A DNA stretch of 64,000 nucleotides from Bradyrhizobium sp. ORS 285. Lineage in GTDB: Bacteria; Pseudomonadota; Alphaproteobacteria; Rhizobiales; Xanthobacteraceae. Shown piece by piece: positions 12,001 through 49,023 of this stretch. The stretch is taken from NCBI RefSeq assembly GCF_900176205.1, contig NZ_LT859959.1, positions 4,175,001 to 4,239,000 of the forward strand, given 5' to 3'. Under the pieces are notes generated by a model that was not told where the DNA came from, made no database searches, and saw only the letters and a program-made list of their open reading frames with translations. Numbering within the stretch: position 1 is the stretch's first letter; every line of letters starts with the position of its first letter. The position numbers were made by a program, and so were the translations under genes.

Positions 12001-12093
12001 GGAGAGGTGGCCGAGTGGCTGAAGGCAACGCTTTGCTAAAGCGTCATACGGTCTCAAGCTGTATCGAGGGTTCGAATCCCTCCCTCTCCGCCA
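12001..12093 (+). tRNA. tRNA-Ser (anticodon GCT)
   Basis: The acceptor arm GGAGAGG pairs with CCTCTCC (12083-12089), followed by discriminator G and an encoded CCA (12091-12093). The anticodon loop TTGCTAA (anticodon GCT at 12035-12037, reading AGC/AGU codons) sits on the stem ACGCT/AGCGT. A long variable arm and the T loop GGTTCGAATCC confirm a class II serine tRNA. Total length is typical for tRNA-Ser. Confidence 0.98.
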
Positions 12094-30891: not shown

Positions 30892-32220
30892 ATGTCTACA
30901 CCCATTCGATCGAGCGCCAGCGCCCTCCTCTCCGCGGCCCAGATCTGGTCGACCGACGACCCGTTCGCATCCACCGGCAACACCGCCGAACCGACGCAGG
31001 CTGCAGCGATCGAGCCGGTCGCTCACGAGGTCGCAGCCGATCCGATTGCCGAGAGCCCGGCTGCCCCGATTGCGTCAACCGCCGCGACCACGCCATCCGA
31101 AAGCGCCACGGCCGTCGTCGAGATGATGATCGCCGCTACGGGCTCGGCCGCCACCACGGAGCCAAAGACCGCCGACGCGCCGGAGCGATCCCTGGCCGAG
31201 ACGATCGCCAACGCCAAGCTGCCGCCGCCGCCGCGCGTGTGGCCGCCGCGCAAGCTGTCGCTGGCGCTGCAGGGCGGAGGAACCTTTTCGGCCTTCACCT
31301 GGGGCGTGCTGGACCGCCTGCTGGAGGAGCCGGCCTGCGATTTCGACACGATCAGCGGCGCCAGCGCCGGCGCGATCAATGCGGCGCTGCTCGCGAGCGG
31401 GCTCGCCAATGGCGGCCGCGACGAAGCCCGCGGCCGTCTCGCCGAGTTCTGGACAGGGCTTGCCGATGACGCCTCGTTCCGCGCGCTGATGCTGATCGGC
31501 GGCTATTCGCCGGCCAGCAGCGCGGTCTCTTTCGGCACTGGCCTGCGCGGCGGCCGCGCCGACCCCCTCGATCTGGCGCCGCTCCGCGACATCCTCACCA
31601 CGACAATCGATTTCGCCGCCGTGCAGGGCGCAGGCGCGCCGCGGCTGCTGGTCGCGGCCACCCGGGTCCGCGATGGCCAGCCGCAGATCTTCCGCAACGG
31701 CGACATCACGCCGGACGTGCTGCTCGCCTCGACCTGCCCGGCCCAGATGCTTGCGGCCGTCGAGATCGACGACGAAAGCTACTGGGACGGCGGCTACGCG
31801 GCCAATCCGCCGCTGATCCAGATTGCGCATGAGTCCAGCGCAGCCGATCTGCTGGTCATTCAGGTCACGCCGGCGCGGGACGGCTTCGTGCCGATGACCT
31901 CGGCCGCGATCGATCGCCGCCTCGACCAGATCGCAGCCAATGCCGTGCTCAACGCCGAGCTTGCGGCGCTGGAATGGGCCCGCAGCGACGGCCTGCACCC
32001 GCCCCGCCTGCATCGGCTCGCCGCCGAGGACGAGATCGAGTCGCTGGCGCAGCGCGAGGCCACCGACTTCGGCAGCGACTTCATCGCCATGCTGCATCAG
32101 CGCGGGCGCGAGGCCGCCGATCGCTGGCTGCGCGAGGCCCCTGCGGGCACGATGCCGGCGATCGCCGAGGAGCGGCCGGCCACCGCGACCGAAGAGGTGC
32201 GCGAGGTCGCTCCGGCGTAG
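30892..32220 (+). CDS. patatin-like phospholipase
   Basis: 442 residues. The first ~115 are a low-complexity Ala/Thr/Pro/Glu region without a clear signal peptide. The patatin domain follows with the oxyanion loop LALQGGGTFSAF, the nucleophile Ser158 in SGASAGAINA (G-x-S-x-G) and the dyad Asp299 in YWDGGYAANPP. Such enzymes hydrolyse phospholipid or other acyl esters. The long disordered N-terminus is unusual. GAGGAG lies about 13 bases upstream of the ATG, rather far. Substrate and location are unknown. Confidence 0.9.
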   Translation: MSTPIRSSASALLSAAQIWSTDDPFASTGNTAEPTQAAAIEPVAHEVAADPIAESPAAPIASTAATTPSESATAVVEMMIAATGSAATTEPKTADAPERSLAETIANAKLPPPPRVWPPRKLSLALQGGGTFSAFTWGVLDRLLEEPACDFDTISGASAGAINAALLASGLANGGRDEARGRLAEFWTGLADDASFRALMLIGGYSPASSAVSFGTGLRGGRADPLDLAPLRDILTTTIDFAAVQGAGAPRLLVAATRVRDGQPQIFRNGDITPDVLLASTCPAQMLAAVEIDDESYWDGGYAANPPLIQIAHESSAADLLVIQVTPARDGFVPMTSAAIDRRLDQIAANAVLNAELAALEWARSDGLHPPRLHRLAAEDEIESLAQREATDFGSDFIAMLHQRGREAADRWLREAPAGTMPAIAEERPATATEEVREVAPA

Positions 32221-46770: not shown

Positions 46771-47183
46771 ACGGAAACGGCGATCAAGCCTTCGTTGCAA
46801 TGGCTCGAGCTCGGCTCGTGCTCGTGGTCGAGGACGAATATTTCATCGCCATGGACCTCCAGGCCGTGTTGGCCGACGCGGGCTACGATGTGCTGGGCCC
46901 CGCCAGCACAGCGACGGACGCGCTGAAACTGCTGGACGACAACAGCCCGTCCGCCGCGGTTCTCGATGTCAATTTGGGAGATCATCGCGTGACTCCCGTC
47001 GCTCACGCGCTCGCCGTGAGGCGCATCCCCTTCGTGCTGGCCAGCGCCTACTCCGATCTGGACCTCGCCAACGAGCCTCTGCTCGCCAAAGCGCCGAACG
47101 TGGGGAAGCCGACCGCGCCCGGCCCGCTTCTCGATGCAGTCGGGCGCATGCTCAGCGCAGTGCCAGTCGCGGATGAGCGCTAA
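46767..47183 (+). CDS. single-domain response regulator, partner of the HWE kinase
   Basis: 138 residues forming one receiver domain: acidic pair VVEDEYF, phospho-accepting aspartate in AVLDVNLGD, then FVLASAYSD and the lysine in NVGKPTAP. There is no output domain, as usual for partners of HWE kinases. The 4-bp overlap with the kinase gene indicates translational coupling. Downstream lie two dispersed palindromes. The target of this pair is unknown. Confidence 0.92.
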   Translation: MNGNGDQAFVAMARARLVLVVEDEYFIAMDLQAVLADAGYDVLGPASTATDALKLLDDNSPSAAVLDVNLGDHRVTPVAHALAVRRIPFVLASAYSDLDLANEPLLAKAPNVGKPTAPGPLLDAVGRMLSAVPVADER

Positions 47184-47184
47184 A

Positions 47185-47284
47185 GCATGATCCGGAAAAG
47201 TGCGCAGCGGTTTTCCGAATAGATCATGCGCAAACAACAACCTAAAGCGCGATGATGATTCATCCTGATCTCATCGCGCTTTAG
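47185..47284. repeat. two adjacent dispersed palindromes
   Basis: The first (47185-47229) pairs GCATGATC with GATCATGC and GGAAAA with TTTTCC. The second (47242-47284) pairs CTAAAGCGCGATGA with TCATCGCGCTTTAG perfectly. The first family recurs at 55800-55848. Both are families I remember as frequent in Bradyrhizobium intergenic DNA. Confidence 0.85.
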
Positions 47285-47418
47285 CGGGCGCGATTCCGAT
47301 GACGCCGTCGTGAACGGCACGTCCTTCAACAACGTGCATCATCTGGGCAGGCAGCATCGTCAGGGCAGATCGAGCTGATCCACCCTGCCGAAAGATCTGC
47401 TCACAGCGATGGCCGCAG

Positions 47419-47820
47419 CTACATCACGCCGTGCGACATCATGACATTCGCCATGTCGTATCTGAGGCGCTCGAGGGTGCGGTGGGCTGCGAGATGATCG
47501 AGGTCGCCTTGCGACAGGCCGATGTCGATCAGCTGCGCCTCGCTCAAGTCACGCAGATGGAGTCGCATTCTCCTGCGCCGACCGCTGTCCTGAAAGGCGT
47601 GCCAGGAGCGTGCAATCAGTCTGAACAGCCACGACGTCGCCAAGCCCGGCGGCCCGGCCGCATTCTTTTCCGACAGCGCATCGCGCAGCCCATTGGCGGA
47701 TGCGCCTGGGCGCGGCGCCGCTGGCACCAGATGCGCCGCGTTCTTTACCAATGTGAGGTGACGATCGCGCGTGGCGGCATTGTGCGCGATCTCGGCTGTG
47801 AGGTGGGTCTGAGGTGGCAT
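47419..47820 (-). CDS. DUF1127 protein, copy 1 of the tandem module
   Basis: 133 residues. The C-terminal part (RLIARSWHAFQDSGRRRRMR, then LHLRDLSEAQLIDIGLSQGD) is a DUF1127 domain, a short arginine-rich motif linked to RNA turnover and stress in several alphaproteobacteria. The N-terminal ~60 residues are of low similarity. GGAG lies 7 bases before the ATG at 47820. The same frame is open for 65 further codons upstream in both copies, so an extended form is possible, but that stretch contains a terminator-like hairpin. Copy 2 is at 48289-48699. Confidence 0.85.
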   Translation of the reverse strand: MPPQTHLTAEIAHNAATRDRHLTLVKNAAHLVPAAPRPGASANGLRDALSEKNAAGPPGLATSWLFRLIARSWHAFQDSGRRRRMRLHLRDLSEAQLIDIGLSQGDLDHLAAHRTLERLRYDMANVMMSHGVM

Positions 47821-47864
47821 CGGTCGCTCCTGCTGCGTGATGCCGGCAGGGAACGTGACCCAAC

Positions 47865-47894
47865 AAAAAGGCCCCGTCCGATGCCGGCGGGGCC
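47865..47894 (-). promoter_or_regulatory. terminator-like leader hairpin of DUF1127 copy 1 (candidate attenuator)
   Basis: On the minus strand GGCCCCG pairs with CGGGGCC, with an inner CCG/CGG extension, and is followed by TTTTTG. It lies 44 bp before the DUF1127 start, inside the leader. TGCCGGCA (47841-47848), just before the ribosome-binding site, is complementary to GCCGGCA in the hairpin, allowing an alternative pairing. The same arrangement is present in copy 2. Confidence 0.7.
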
Positions 47895-47921
47895 TGGTGG
47901 AATGATCGTGTCGTCGAAATC

Positions 47922-47999
47922 CTAGCGCACGACTCCTCCCACGGCCCGGCTGCAGCGGGTCGTATGTTTGCGGTTGGAGCGGCGCACGACGTTGATCAT
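47922..47999 (-). CDS. candidate 25-codon upstream ORF of DUF1127 copy 1
   Basis: ATG to TAG, 25 residues, in a different frame from the DUF1127 gene. The copy in the second module has exactly the same length, and both end in a G-V-x-R-stop pattern (GGVVR and EGVAR). There is no clear ribosome-binding site; a promoter-like element ends only 6 bp upstream, so translation might be leaderless. Coding status is unproven, and the conservation could reflect RNA. Confidence 0.35.
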   Translation of the reverse strand: MINVVRRSNRKHTTRCSRAVGGVVR

Positions 48000-48005
48000 G
48001 GTTTG

Positions 48006-48035
48006 CAAGTACCACGAGGATTGCGCCAGATCAAG
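48006..48035 (-). promoter_or_regulatory. conserved promoter-like element of DUF1127 module 1
   Basis: CTTGAT (48030-48035) and TACTTG (48006-48011) are separated by 18 bases. Module 2 has CTTGAT and TATTGA with the same spacing and the same distance to its uORF. CTTG-type -35 boxes are typical of alphaproteobacterial RpoH promoters; assignment to RpoH is inference. Confidence 0.35.
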
Positions 48036-48149
48036 GCATGTAGTTCCTGCGCTCACAGATGAGCACCTATGCGCTCAGCTTGCCGGGTGCTTTTACGCTC
48101 GACCATTTTTCGACAGAGCGCTGGTTCGAAGAGAAGCCGATCTCTCCTC

Positions 48150-48226
48150 CGTCATTGCGAGCGCAGCGAAGCAATCCAGAGTGATGTGCGAGACCCTGGA
48201 TTGCTTCGCTGGCGCTCGCAATGACG
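48150..48226. repeat. dispersed palindrome (CATTGCGAGCGCAGCGAAGC family)
   Basis: A 30-base left arm (48150-48179) pairs with a 31-base right arm (48196-48226) with a single extra base and a 16-base loop. It lies between the two DUF1127 modules (gap 48000-48288), downstream of copy 2. Confidence 0.9.
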
Positions 48227-48288
48227 TCGCGGCGACCATCGCGCGCAATCGGCCGACCGTCCCCTGCATCGCGACGGTCCGCGACCGG

Positions 48289-48699
48289 CTACACTCCCCT
48301 CCGCGAAACGAGCCCGACATATCGCGGGTCGTGCCTCAAGCTCTCGAGCGTCTGCAGCGCGGCGATGTGCTCGATCTCGGCACGGGTGATGCCGATATCG
48401 GTGAGCTCGCGTTCGCTCAGCTCGGACAGGCTTGCCCGCACGTACTCCCGGCGTTGCCGCGCTTGGATGGCGCGCCAGCACCGGCCGATCAGGCGGATGA
48501 TCAGCCAAGTCGGCGTGGCCGGCGGACCGGCCGCGTCCTTTTCCGACAACACCTCGCGCAACGCAGCGATCGACGCATCGGATTGCGTCGATGGCTGCAC
48601 GCTGCTGATCGCGCCGGTGGCTGACGCGATCGAGAGATCAACGTTGAGCCCTGACACATGCCCGGCGTCGATCGTCGAATGAGTCTGGTGGGGTGGCAT
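48289..48699 (-). CDS. DUF1127 protein, copy 2 of the tandem module
   Basis: 136 residues with a C-terminal DUF1127 motif (RCWRAIQARQRREYVRASLS, then ELSERELTDIGITRAEIEHI). It aligns with copy 1 over the C-terminal half (LREVLSEKDAAGPP against LRDALSEKNAAGPP), while the N-terminal parts differ. GGAG lies 6 bases before the ATG at 48699. Its leader repeats the uORF, hairpin and promoter-like element of copy 1, so the whole expression unit was duplicated and then diverged. Confidence 0.85.
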   Translation of the reverse strand: MPPHQTHSTIDAGHVSGLNVDLSIASATGAISSVQPSTQSDASIAALREVLSEKDAAGPPATPTWLIIRLIGRCWRAIQARQRREYVRASLSELSERELTDIGITRAEIEHIAALQTLESLRHDPRYVGLVSRRGV

Positions 48700-48744
48700 C
48701 CTATGCTCCTGCTGTTGTGCCGGCAGGGGAGCAAAGGCCAAACG

Positions 48745-48773
48745 AAAAGGCCCCGTCCGATGCCGGCGGGGCC
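48745..48773 (-). promoter_or_regulatory. terminator-like leader hairpin of DUF1127 copy 2 (candidate attenuator)
   Basis: GGCCCCG/CGGGGCC with inner CCG/CGG and a TTTT tail on the minus strand, identical in stem and loop to the hairpin of copy 1. It is 45 bp before the start codon. TGCCGGCA recurs at 48718-48725 next to the ribosome-binding site. Confidence 0.7.
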
Positions 48774-48800
48774 TGGTGAGAACATCGCGTCGTCGATCTC

Positions 48801-48878
48801 CTAGCGCGCGACTCCTTCCATGGCCCGGCCAAGGCCGGTCATGTGATCGAAGTTGACAATGCGGATCGATGTTCTCAT
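48801..48878 (-). CDS. candidate 25-codon upstream ORF of DUF1127 copy 2
   Basis: ATG to TAG, 25 residues, beginning MRTSIR and ending GRAMEGVAR. Equal in length to the uORF of copy 1, with the same distance to the hairpin and gene start. A promoter-like element ends 6 bp upstream. Translation is unproven. Confidence 0.35.
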   Translation of the reverse strand: MRTSIRIVNFDHMTGLGRAMEGVAR

Positions 48879-48884
48879 GGCATT

Positions 48885-48914
48885 TCAATACCACAATGCA
48901 TCTGCCGTATCAAG
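48885..48914 (-). promoter_or_regulatory. conserved promoter-like element of DUF1127 module 2
   Basis: CTTGAT (48909-48914) and TATTGA (48885-48890) with an 18-base spacer, matching module 1 in sequence and placement. Confidence 0.35.
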
Positions 48915-49023
48915 CGATAGTTCTGGATTTAACATCCTCAAGGCGAGTTGCCGCGAACTAACAACACCTGCCCAGACGACCTGCACGCCGCACTATGCTG
49001 GCCGCCACCTGCATGAAATCGCC

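Follow-up and report, generated by a model that had tools for sequence, protein, structure and literature searches.

Introduction

Proteins of the DUF1127 family are implicated in RNA turnover, in stress and in phosphate and carbon metabolism, and the inputs to their genes are poorly known. For one long gene of this family, duf1127_1 of Sinorhizobium meliloti, Kothe et al. (2025; PMC12218461, in the sections available) described attenuation through translation of an upstream open reading frame (uORF). Tetracycline and chloramphenicol induce the gene, Rho is the probable termination factor, and the leader was proposed to sense the translation status. Its uORF begins at nucleotide (nt) 31 behind a ribosome-binding site (RBS) of its own, and the C-rich codons 3–10 are a key element. 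Here we analysed a stretch of 64,000 nt of Bradyrhizobium sp. ORS 285 (contig NZ_LT859959.1, positions 4,175,001 to 4,239,000), called the window, to which all positions refer. Two DUF1127 genes on its minus strand each follow a leader with a uORF and a terminator-like hairpin.

The second system of reference is trpL. In S. meliloti trpL is leaderless, its leader RNA beginning with the ATG of the small open reading frame (ORF), and attenuation yields a small terminated RNA, rnTrpL; a trpL peptide exists in Bradyrhizobium as well (PMC7298713, PMC10117765, again in the sections available). The DUF1127 leader resembles trpL in that a small, apparently leaderless ORF is combined with presumed attenuation. 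It differs in having 25 codons and no amino-acid run, whereas trpL, the leader of trpE, has 14–19 codons including consecutive ones for Trp.

On the evidence given below, each of the two modules is rather likely to be a transcription attenuator of the ribosome-mediated (trp) type whose leader ORF is leaderless and whose terminator is intrinsic. Attenuation of a DUF1127 gene by a uORF is already known; of interest here are the probable leaderless start, the absence of any run of one amino acid and what seems to be a parallel in Sinorhizobium. A preliminary description of this DNA had known of no description of a uORF-plus-attenuator leader of this form. This has to be restricted, as such a leader, of the Rho type, is now described for the Sinorhizobium gene (PMC12218461), and it stands for Bradyrhizobium insofar as no earlier description of the module or experiment on it was recognised in the open-licence literature considered (article sections, supplements excluded). 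A link of Cuckoo RNA or CcsR-type small RNAs to the DUF1127 leader did not emerge from the article sections examined and was dropped.

Two modules of the same layout precede DUF1127 genes

Direct reading, the ORF list and an alignment showed the same order in both minus-strand modules, i.e. CTTGAT, TGnTA, a 25-codon uORF, a GC hairpin with U-tract and a DUF1127 gene, so the two-module layout claimed earlier is borne out. In the upstream module the −35 box CTTGAT (48909–48914) and the extended −10 box TGGTA (48889–48893) are followed by the probably leaderless uORF MRTSIRIVNFDHMTGLGRAMEGVAR (48801–48878; ATG at 48878, TAG at 48803–48801), the intrinsic terminator GGCCCCG..CGGGGCC with UUUU (48745–48773, hairpin itself 48773–48749) and a gene for a protein of 136 amino acids (48289–48699). 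The downstream module consists of CTTGAT (48030–48035), TGGTA (48010–48014), the likewise probably leaderless uORF MINVVRRSNRKHTTRCSRAVGGVVR (47922–47999; ATG at 47999, TAG ending at 47922), the terminator hairpin with its U-tract (47866–47894, hairpin itself 47894–47870) and a gene for 133 amino acids (47419–47820). Both hairpins start 105 nt after the uORF ATG and both genes 74 nt after the hairpin start. Matches of the upstream and downstream protein to PF06568 (DUF1127) scored 43.4 and 28.2 bits, above the gathering cut-off of 23.3. Two details of the preliminary description had to be adjusted: the uORF encodes 25 amino acids, the 26 codons given before being reached when the stop is counted, and the proposed −10 hexamer is better read as part of an extended TGnTA box, while CTTGAT stands as −35 box.

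The pattern CTTGAT-N14-16-TGNTA-N9-11-ATG, which was composed after the modules had been seen, matched the 7.8-Mb genome twice, at the two window modules, and its reversed control not at all. Six DUF1127 matches in the genome exceed the cut-off, and a covariance model of the leader (see below) places it only at the two window modules. Rfam gave no leader match above gathering score, the sole window match passing being a tRNA; a relaxed scan of 47400–49000 returned three sub-threshold matches, two of them to microRNA models at the inverted repeat between the modules and one to asX2.

A short leader ORF ahead of an intrinsic terminator and a gene is, as far as the sequence tells, the arrangement of a trp-type attenuator. 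It does not agree with the duf1127_1 type, an RBS-led uORF with no intrinsic terminator, since the modules have a strong hairpin with U-tract and an ATG at the expected +1. Nevertheless, duf1127_1 is of the same long gene class and likewise has a uORF on whose translation attenuation depends (PMC12218461), and termination might be Rho-dependent and coupled to uORF translation in Bradyrhizobium too, with the hairpin secondary. We consider this very improbable in view of the strong GC hairpin and U-tract, although the modules were collected partly through this hairpin. According to the sections available (PMC12218461), the S. meliloti uORF has an RBS, and a candidate stem-loop there is not a terminator, Rho being proposed instead, whereas the Bradyrhizobium leader combines a uORF that looks leaderless with a strong intrinsic terminator and a predicted paired antiterminator.

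Promoter and probable leaderless start of the uORF

Eighty-nine modules were extracted from the genomes searched (L numbers denote loci). The statistics on 88 of them leave out L054, which has a frameshift; so do they L105, a further module which the hairpin pattern had missed and whose frame was determined by eye. In the 88 aligned modules TTGAT was found 86 times, exactly 35 nt before the ATG in 81 and at 36 nt in five. TGnTA occurred in all 88 (5.1 of 88 in shuffled sequences), 15 nt before the ATG in 80, at 16 nt in five and elsewhere in three. TGnTA is the motif found upstream of leaderless mRNAs of B. japonicum in a differential RNA sequencing study (PMC4842269, in the part available).

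If the A of the uORF ATG is taken as +1, −35 box and extended −10 box lie at their standard positions. In the upstream window copy the extended −10 box puts +1 at this A or close to it. A start there leaves no space for a Shine-Dalgarno (SD) sequence, and the uORF is therefore very probably leaderless. Leaderless RNAs are initiated by another route than RBS-led ones.

A FixK-type box (TTG[AC]-N6-[TG]CAA) over the −35 region was present in only four of the 88 leaders (L021b, L022b, L069, L087), and this candidate was dropped. A FixK-like TTGA-N6-[TG]CAA overlaps the −35 box of the downstream copy in the window.

The leader is widespread and more constrained than the protein N-terminus

A search of Bradyrhizobium genomes with the leader DNA revealed homologous modules widely in the genus. 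It had matches in 99 of 146 genomes, in 14 of them to a short piece only, mostly the terminator. Among the listed places with E < 1e-20 there are at least 90 modules in at least 85 genomes; as up to five candidates were scored per genome, these counts are lower bounds. A degenerate uORF-end pattern retrieved 68 stretches from a collection of named genomes, with titles of Bradyrhizobium or Bradyrhizobiaceae except for three contigs (two Xanthobacteraceae metagenome-assembled genomes).

A DUF1127 profile, which was built from these proteins, matched downstream of 87 of the 89 modules (exceptions L027 and one module of L071). In 87 of 88 an ATG frame of at least 60 codons begins 66–74 nt past the hairpin start; L092 has no long frame there, and the identity comparison below uses the other 87.

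The covariance model R1 was built from 64 of the 88 leaders, those under 95.5% identity. Within the family it matched 41 of 295 genomes at E up to 0.001, and within the order 24 of 297 at E up to 0.01. Strong matches outside the genus (>74 bits) fell into three genera, g43 (two genomes), g26 (two) and g3 (three). DUF1127 follows the leader at the one g43 locus tested (L125) and at the two tested in g26, of which L135 scored 22.6 bits, just below the cut-off. In g3 the leader precedes a gene for a GNAT acetyltransferase and not DUF1127 (PF00583, 39.9 bits; L138 was the one tested), whose best NCBIfam match is the kasugamycin acetyltransferase model at 24 bits, far under the cut-off of 510. Eight weak matches (L144, L145, L147–L152) resembled unrelated terminators or could not be assigned and were rejected; the analysis covers neither L153–L156 nor about a dozen weak matches with no locus.

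As a side observation, leaders of the g3 type, from another Xanthobacteraceae genus, with a TGA stop before a GNAT gene are found at L136:1139-1271, L137, L138 and L214.

The preliminary description called the modules tandem duplicated, which holds in a loose sense; a recent duplication is ruled out as the source of leader conservation. The two window leaders are 74% identical to each other, whereas a close relative has this pair too, at 97 and 99%, and beyond it the next best leaders, from other genomes, reach 84 and 85%. A second pair of modules about 1.2 kb apart (genome G064) behaves likewise, each leader being nearest to a different one from other genomes. Thus either copy has its nearest counterparts among leaders of other species and not in its partner, and conservation confined to this pair, named beforehand as what would overturn the interpretation, was not found. 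The suggestion that the leader is more constrained than part of the protein also held: in mean pairwise comparison of 87 modules the leaders were 85% identical at the nt level, whereas at the amino acid level the proteins reached 77% in their DUF1127 core and 49% in their N-terminal part.

The reading frame of the uORF is maintained

An intact frame of 24–26 codons that ends shortly before the hairpin is present in 88 of the 89 extracted modules and in L105 as well (89 of 90). Its length is 78 nt in 81 leaders, 81 nt in six and 75 nt in one, while stop and hairpin are 23 to 29 nt apart, with differences in single-base steps. L041 and L095 have insertions of two and one bases which jointly restore the frame, with peptides common to L048, L070, L094 and L096. 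The stop codon within the genus is TAG in 85 and TAA in three; in L136–L138 (g3) the 25 codons are kept and the stop is TGA.

These data also bear on the question whether the leader primarily encodes a structured small RNA of about 130 nt with its 3′ end at the hairpin and a function in trans. The frame would then be incidental, and DUF1127 would depend on read-through or on a separate promoter. Action in trans is indeed possible for a terminated attenuator RNA, as rnTrpL of S. meliloti shows (PMC7298713, section available). Nevertheless, ATG and stop are kept in nearly all modules, the double indel restores the frame, and TAG is exchanged for TGA in another genus. Furthermore, the long ATG frame begins 66–74 nt past the hairpin start (87/88), the DUF1127 match follows (87/89), and the ribosome switch point described below is common to thrS leaders. 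We therefore regard a pure small RNA gene as unlikely.

The codons of the aligned leaders contain no run of one amino acid, unlike attenuators of amino-acid biosynthesis. Among the 81 leaders of exactly 25 codons, which were used for this count and for the codon scan below, NAY codons occur at position 12 in 78, at 9 in 69 and at 11 in 46. Codons 9, 11 and 12 are positions at which a stall would still permit antitermination, which could point to an amino-acid-specific attenuator like the thrS and dapA leaders, with Asn/His (NAY) codons as the regulatory ones. A run of one amino acid is missing for this too, and of seven relatives outside the genus L133 alone has NAY at codon 12, the rest encoding Arg, Pro, Ser, Thr or Ile there. 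We know of no connection of DUF1127 with Asn or His supply, and we think such specificity improbable.

Two predicted alternative folds and a switch point in the folding model

Complete leaders can form three hairpins, i.e. H1 (CCCGC-UUCG-GCUGGG), H2 (GUGGAAGGAGUC with GACAUCUUUUCCAC) and the terminator. In the upstream window copy H1 is CCGGC-CUUG-GCCGG within the uORF (48825–48838); its 3′ arm overlaps the antiterminator segment GGCCGGGCC (48822–48830), the complement of the terminator 5′ arm. The 5′ strand of H2 (48810–48821) covers late uORF codons including the SD-like GGAAGGAG, and the 3′ strand (approximately 48776–48785) adjoins the terminator. The corresponding elements of the downstream copy are H1 CCCGC-UGCA-GCCGGG (47945–47959), the antiterminator segment GCCGGGCC (47943–47950) and the H2 strands at 47931–47942 and approximately 47897–47906.

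Nascent leaders, cut before the terminator 3′ arm, prolong H2 via GGCUGGGCC:GGCCCCGCC into the terminator 5′ arm; seven of eight leaders did so with no part masked. The probability of pairing between uORF and terminator 5′ arm in the nascent RNA was 0.85 on average and exceeded 0.5 in 87 of 88 leaders, so that an antiterminator exclusive of the terminator, as expected for the trp type, is predicted in all but one. When the last codons were recoded synonymously the pairing probability was 0.51, and 10% of the recodings reached the native value. The stretch at the uORF end had a mean stability z of −1.5 against recodings, 14% of which were equally stable. Gly codon 22 is GGA in all 88 leaders, while GGA makes up 5% of Gly codons in the long ORFs of the window rich in GC at third positions. 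In an alignment of 78 leaders (76 distinct), which was fitted to the H1-H2-terminator structure and hence is biased in its favour, two-sided changes were seen at five pairs, all in H2, with 11 cells; 4 and 0 of 500 shuffles were that high. Outside the genus the fold formed with no ribosome in five of seven leaders (not in L133 and L137).

The footprint of a ribosome was then masked at each codon and the antiterminator probability averaged over the 81 leaders. With the A-site at codons 2–12 the mean was 0.85–0.86; it fell to 0.55 at codon 13, 0.24 at codon 14 and 0.01 at codons 15–17. Four thrS leaders lose the antiterminator over the same codons, 12–14, in this folding model. The common switch point connects the DUF1127 leader with an identifiable type of attenuator.

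The thrS leaders (seven loci; only L140 was tested, with thrS at 451 bits) and dapA leaders (three loci; two tested, with dihydrodipicolinate synthase in Pfam) had also been caught by the covariance model. Like the DUF1127 leader they show a frame of 24–25 codons with its ATG just past a promoter-like box (by eye), a terminator and a gene. They differ in the mid-frame Thr (thrS) or Lys (L143, L146) codons, in the upstream boxes, which by eye are unlike those of the DUF1127 leader, and in their targets, threonyl-tRNA synthetase and dihydrodipicolinate synthase.

Seven thrS leaders with 25 codons, Thr at codons 10–12 and 14 and then a terminator are located at L109:371-504, L110:388-522, L140:1501-1635, L141, L142, L158 and L159, and have the appearance of Thr attenuators whose leader ORF is leaderless. 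The dapA-type leaders (L139:1501-1631, L143:1501-1634, L146:1501-1634) have 24–25 codons and then a terminator, with Lys in mid-frame in L143 and L146.

Given these folds, the module would operate as follows. A sigma-70-type RNA polymerase would start at the A of the uORF ATG. With brisk translation the ribosome would move past codons 13–15 and mask the uORF part of the antiterminator, so that the terminator hairpin could form and the RNA would end at about 130 nt. The inducing state would be a pioneer ribosome that is delayed or halted over the first twelve codons or so, e.g. by translation inhibitors or scarce charged tRNA. H2, formed by the uORF end and the pre-terminator segment, would then zip into GGCNGGGCC:GGCCCCGCC and occupy the terminator 5′ arm, and transcription would proceed into the DUF1127 gene. 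Because the uORF has no run of a single amino acid, the input may be a general slowdown of translation instead of the shortage of one amino acid.

Observations that weigh against attenuation

Several observations argue against trp-type attenuation. In the folding model the antiterminator has a probability of 0.86 with no ribosome and 0.83 with a ribosome on the stop codon. The corresponding values of the four thrS leaders are 0.00, 0.05, 0.49 and 0.80 with no ribosome, so that in three of four the antiterminator is poor or half-formed, unlike in DUF1127 leaders, and 0.12–0.24 on the stop; the logic of the DUF1127 leader is thus not a clean copy of trp. The upstream window copy is the exception among the nascent leaders, with 0.24 in the absence of a ribosome and 0.89 with one at codons 2–10; it has a long helix which pairs the uORF start with the pre-terminator. 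When complete leaders are folded to minimum energy, the terminator is present in all eight of the genus and in 12 of 13 others, thrS included (exception L138), hence antitermination must be kinetic. A control with the structure slid by +1 gave 23 two-sided cells, all in one pair, compared to 11 for the structure itself. H1 and the antiterminator extension are nearly invariant and for this reason lack compensatory changes. The results with no ribosome and with the slid control slightly lowered our confidence in the attenuator.

Up to 61 of the 146 genomes of the genus do not have a full module. In L054 a one-base deletion splits the uORF frame. Frame-internal stops are absent from all 88 leaders, which is only weakly informative as column shuffling gives 5.8 on average with a minimum of 0. 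The ratio of nonsynonymous to synonymous change (pN/pS) was 0.93 overall in 39 nearest-neighbour pairs, so that there is no conservation at the level of the peptide. By alignment column pN/pS was 0.6 in columns 2–13 (P 0.04) and 2.3 in 14–27 (P 0.09). Selection on the uORF peptide, with no synonymous excess in these pairs, is therefore unsupported, and the constraint on the second half of the uORF acts on the RNA. Most simply, it is important that the uORF be translated, the encoded amino acids count for little, and the second half counts for a great deal as RNA.

At L054:714-850 the first frame closes at an ATGA overlap, and the conserved second half could be read via reinitiation. Hiding of the DUF1127 SD sequence in a hairpin was predicted in 87 of 87 leaders and in 81% of shuffles as well, and is not claimed.

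Possible role of the module

A more far-reaching proposal, which we put forward tentatively and think somewhat doubtful, is a codon-unspecific sensor of translation status made of a leaderless mini-ORF and an intrinsic terminator. In Bradyrhizobium it would have come to control DUF1127 separately from the Rho-based uORF sensor that Sinorhizobium has, and in a third lineage it would precede a GNAT acetyltransferase gene. If true, the sensor would report specifically on the leaderless route of initiation, and the terminated RNA and the 25-amino-acid peptide could act in trans like rnTrpL and peTrpL. If two rhizobial lineages have separately placed long DUF1127 genes under translation-sensing leaders, this would point to a function of these proteins under failing translation. 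The module, of small size and present in at least 90 copies in one genus, could be a natural reporter of leaderless translation in a nitrogen-fixing symbiont.

Further features of the window

A second tRNA-Ser(GCT) was called by ARAGORN at 31613–31704. It has no Rfam support, cannot be aligned with the one at 12001 and is probably a false call; a genomic island between the two tRNA-Ser calls was rejected for the same lack of alignment. At 48153–48224, between the modules, CATTGCGAGCGCAGCGAAGCAATCC and a nearly complementary copy make up a long inverted repeat, which may be an intergenic palindrome of the dispersed kind and has one match in the window. Two more inverted repeats, CTAAAGCGCGATGA... 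and GCATGATC..CGGAAAA..., perhaps also dispersed intergenic repeats, are located downstream of the second gene (47160–47320).

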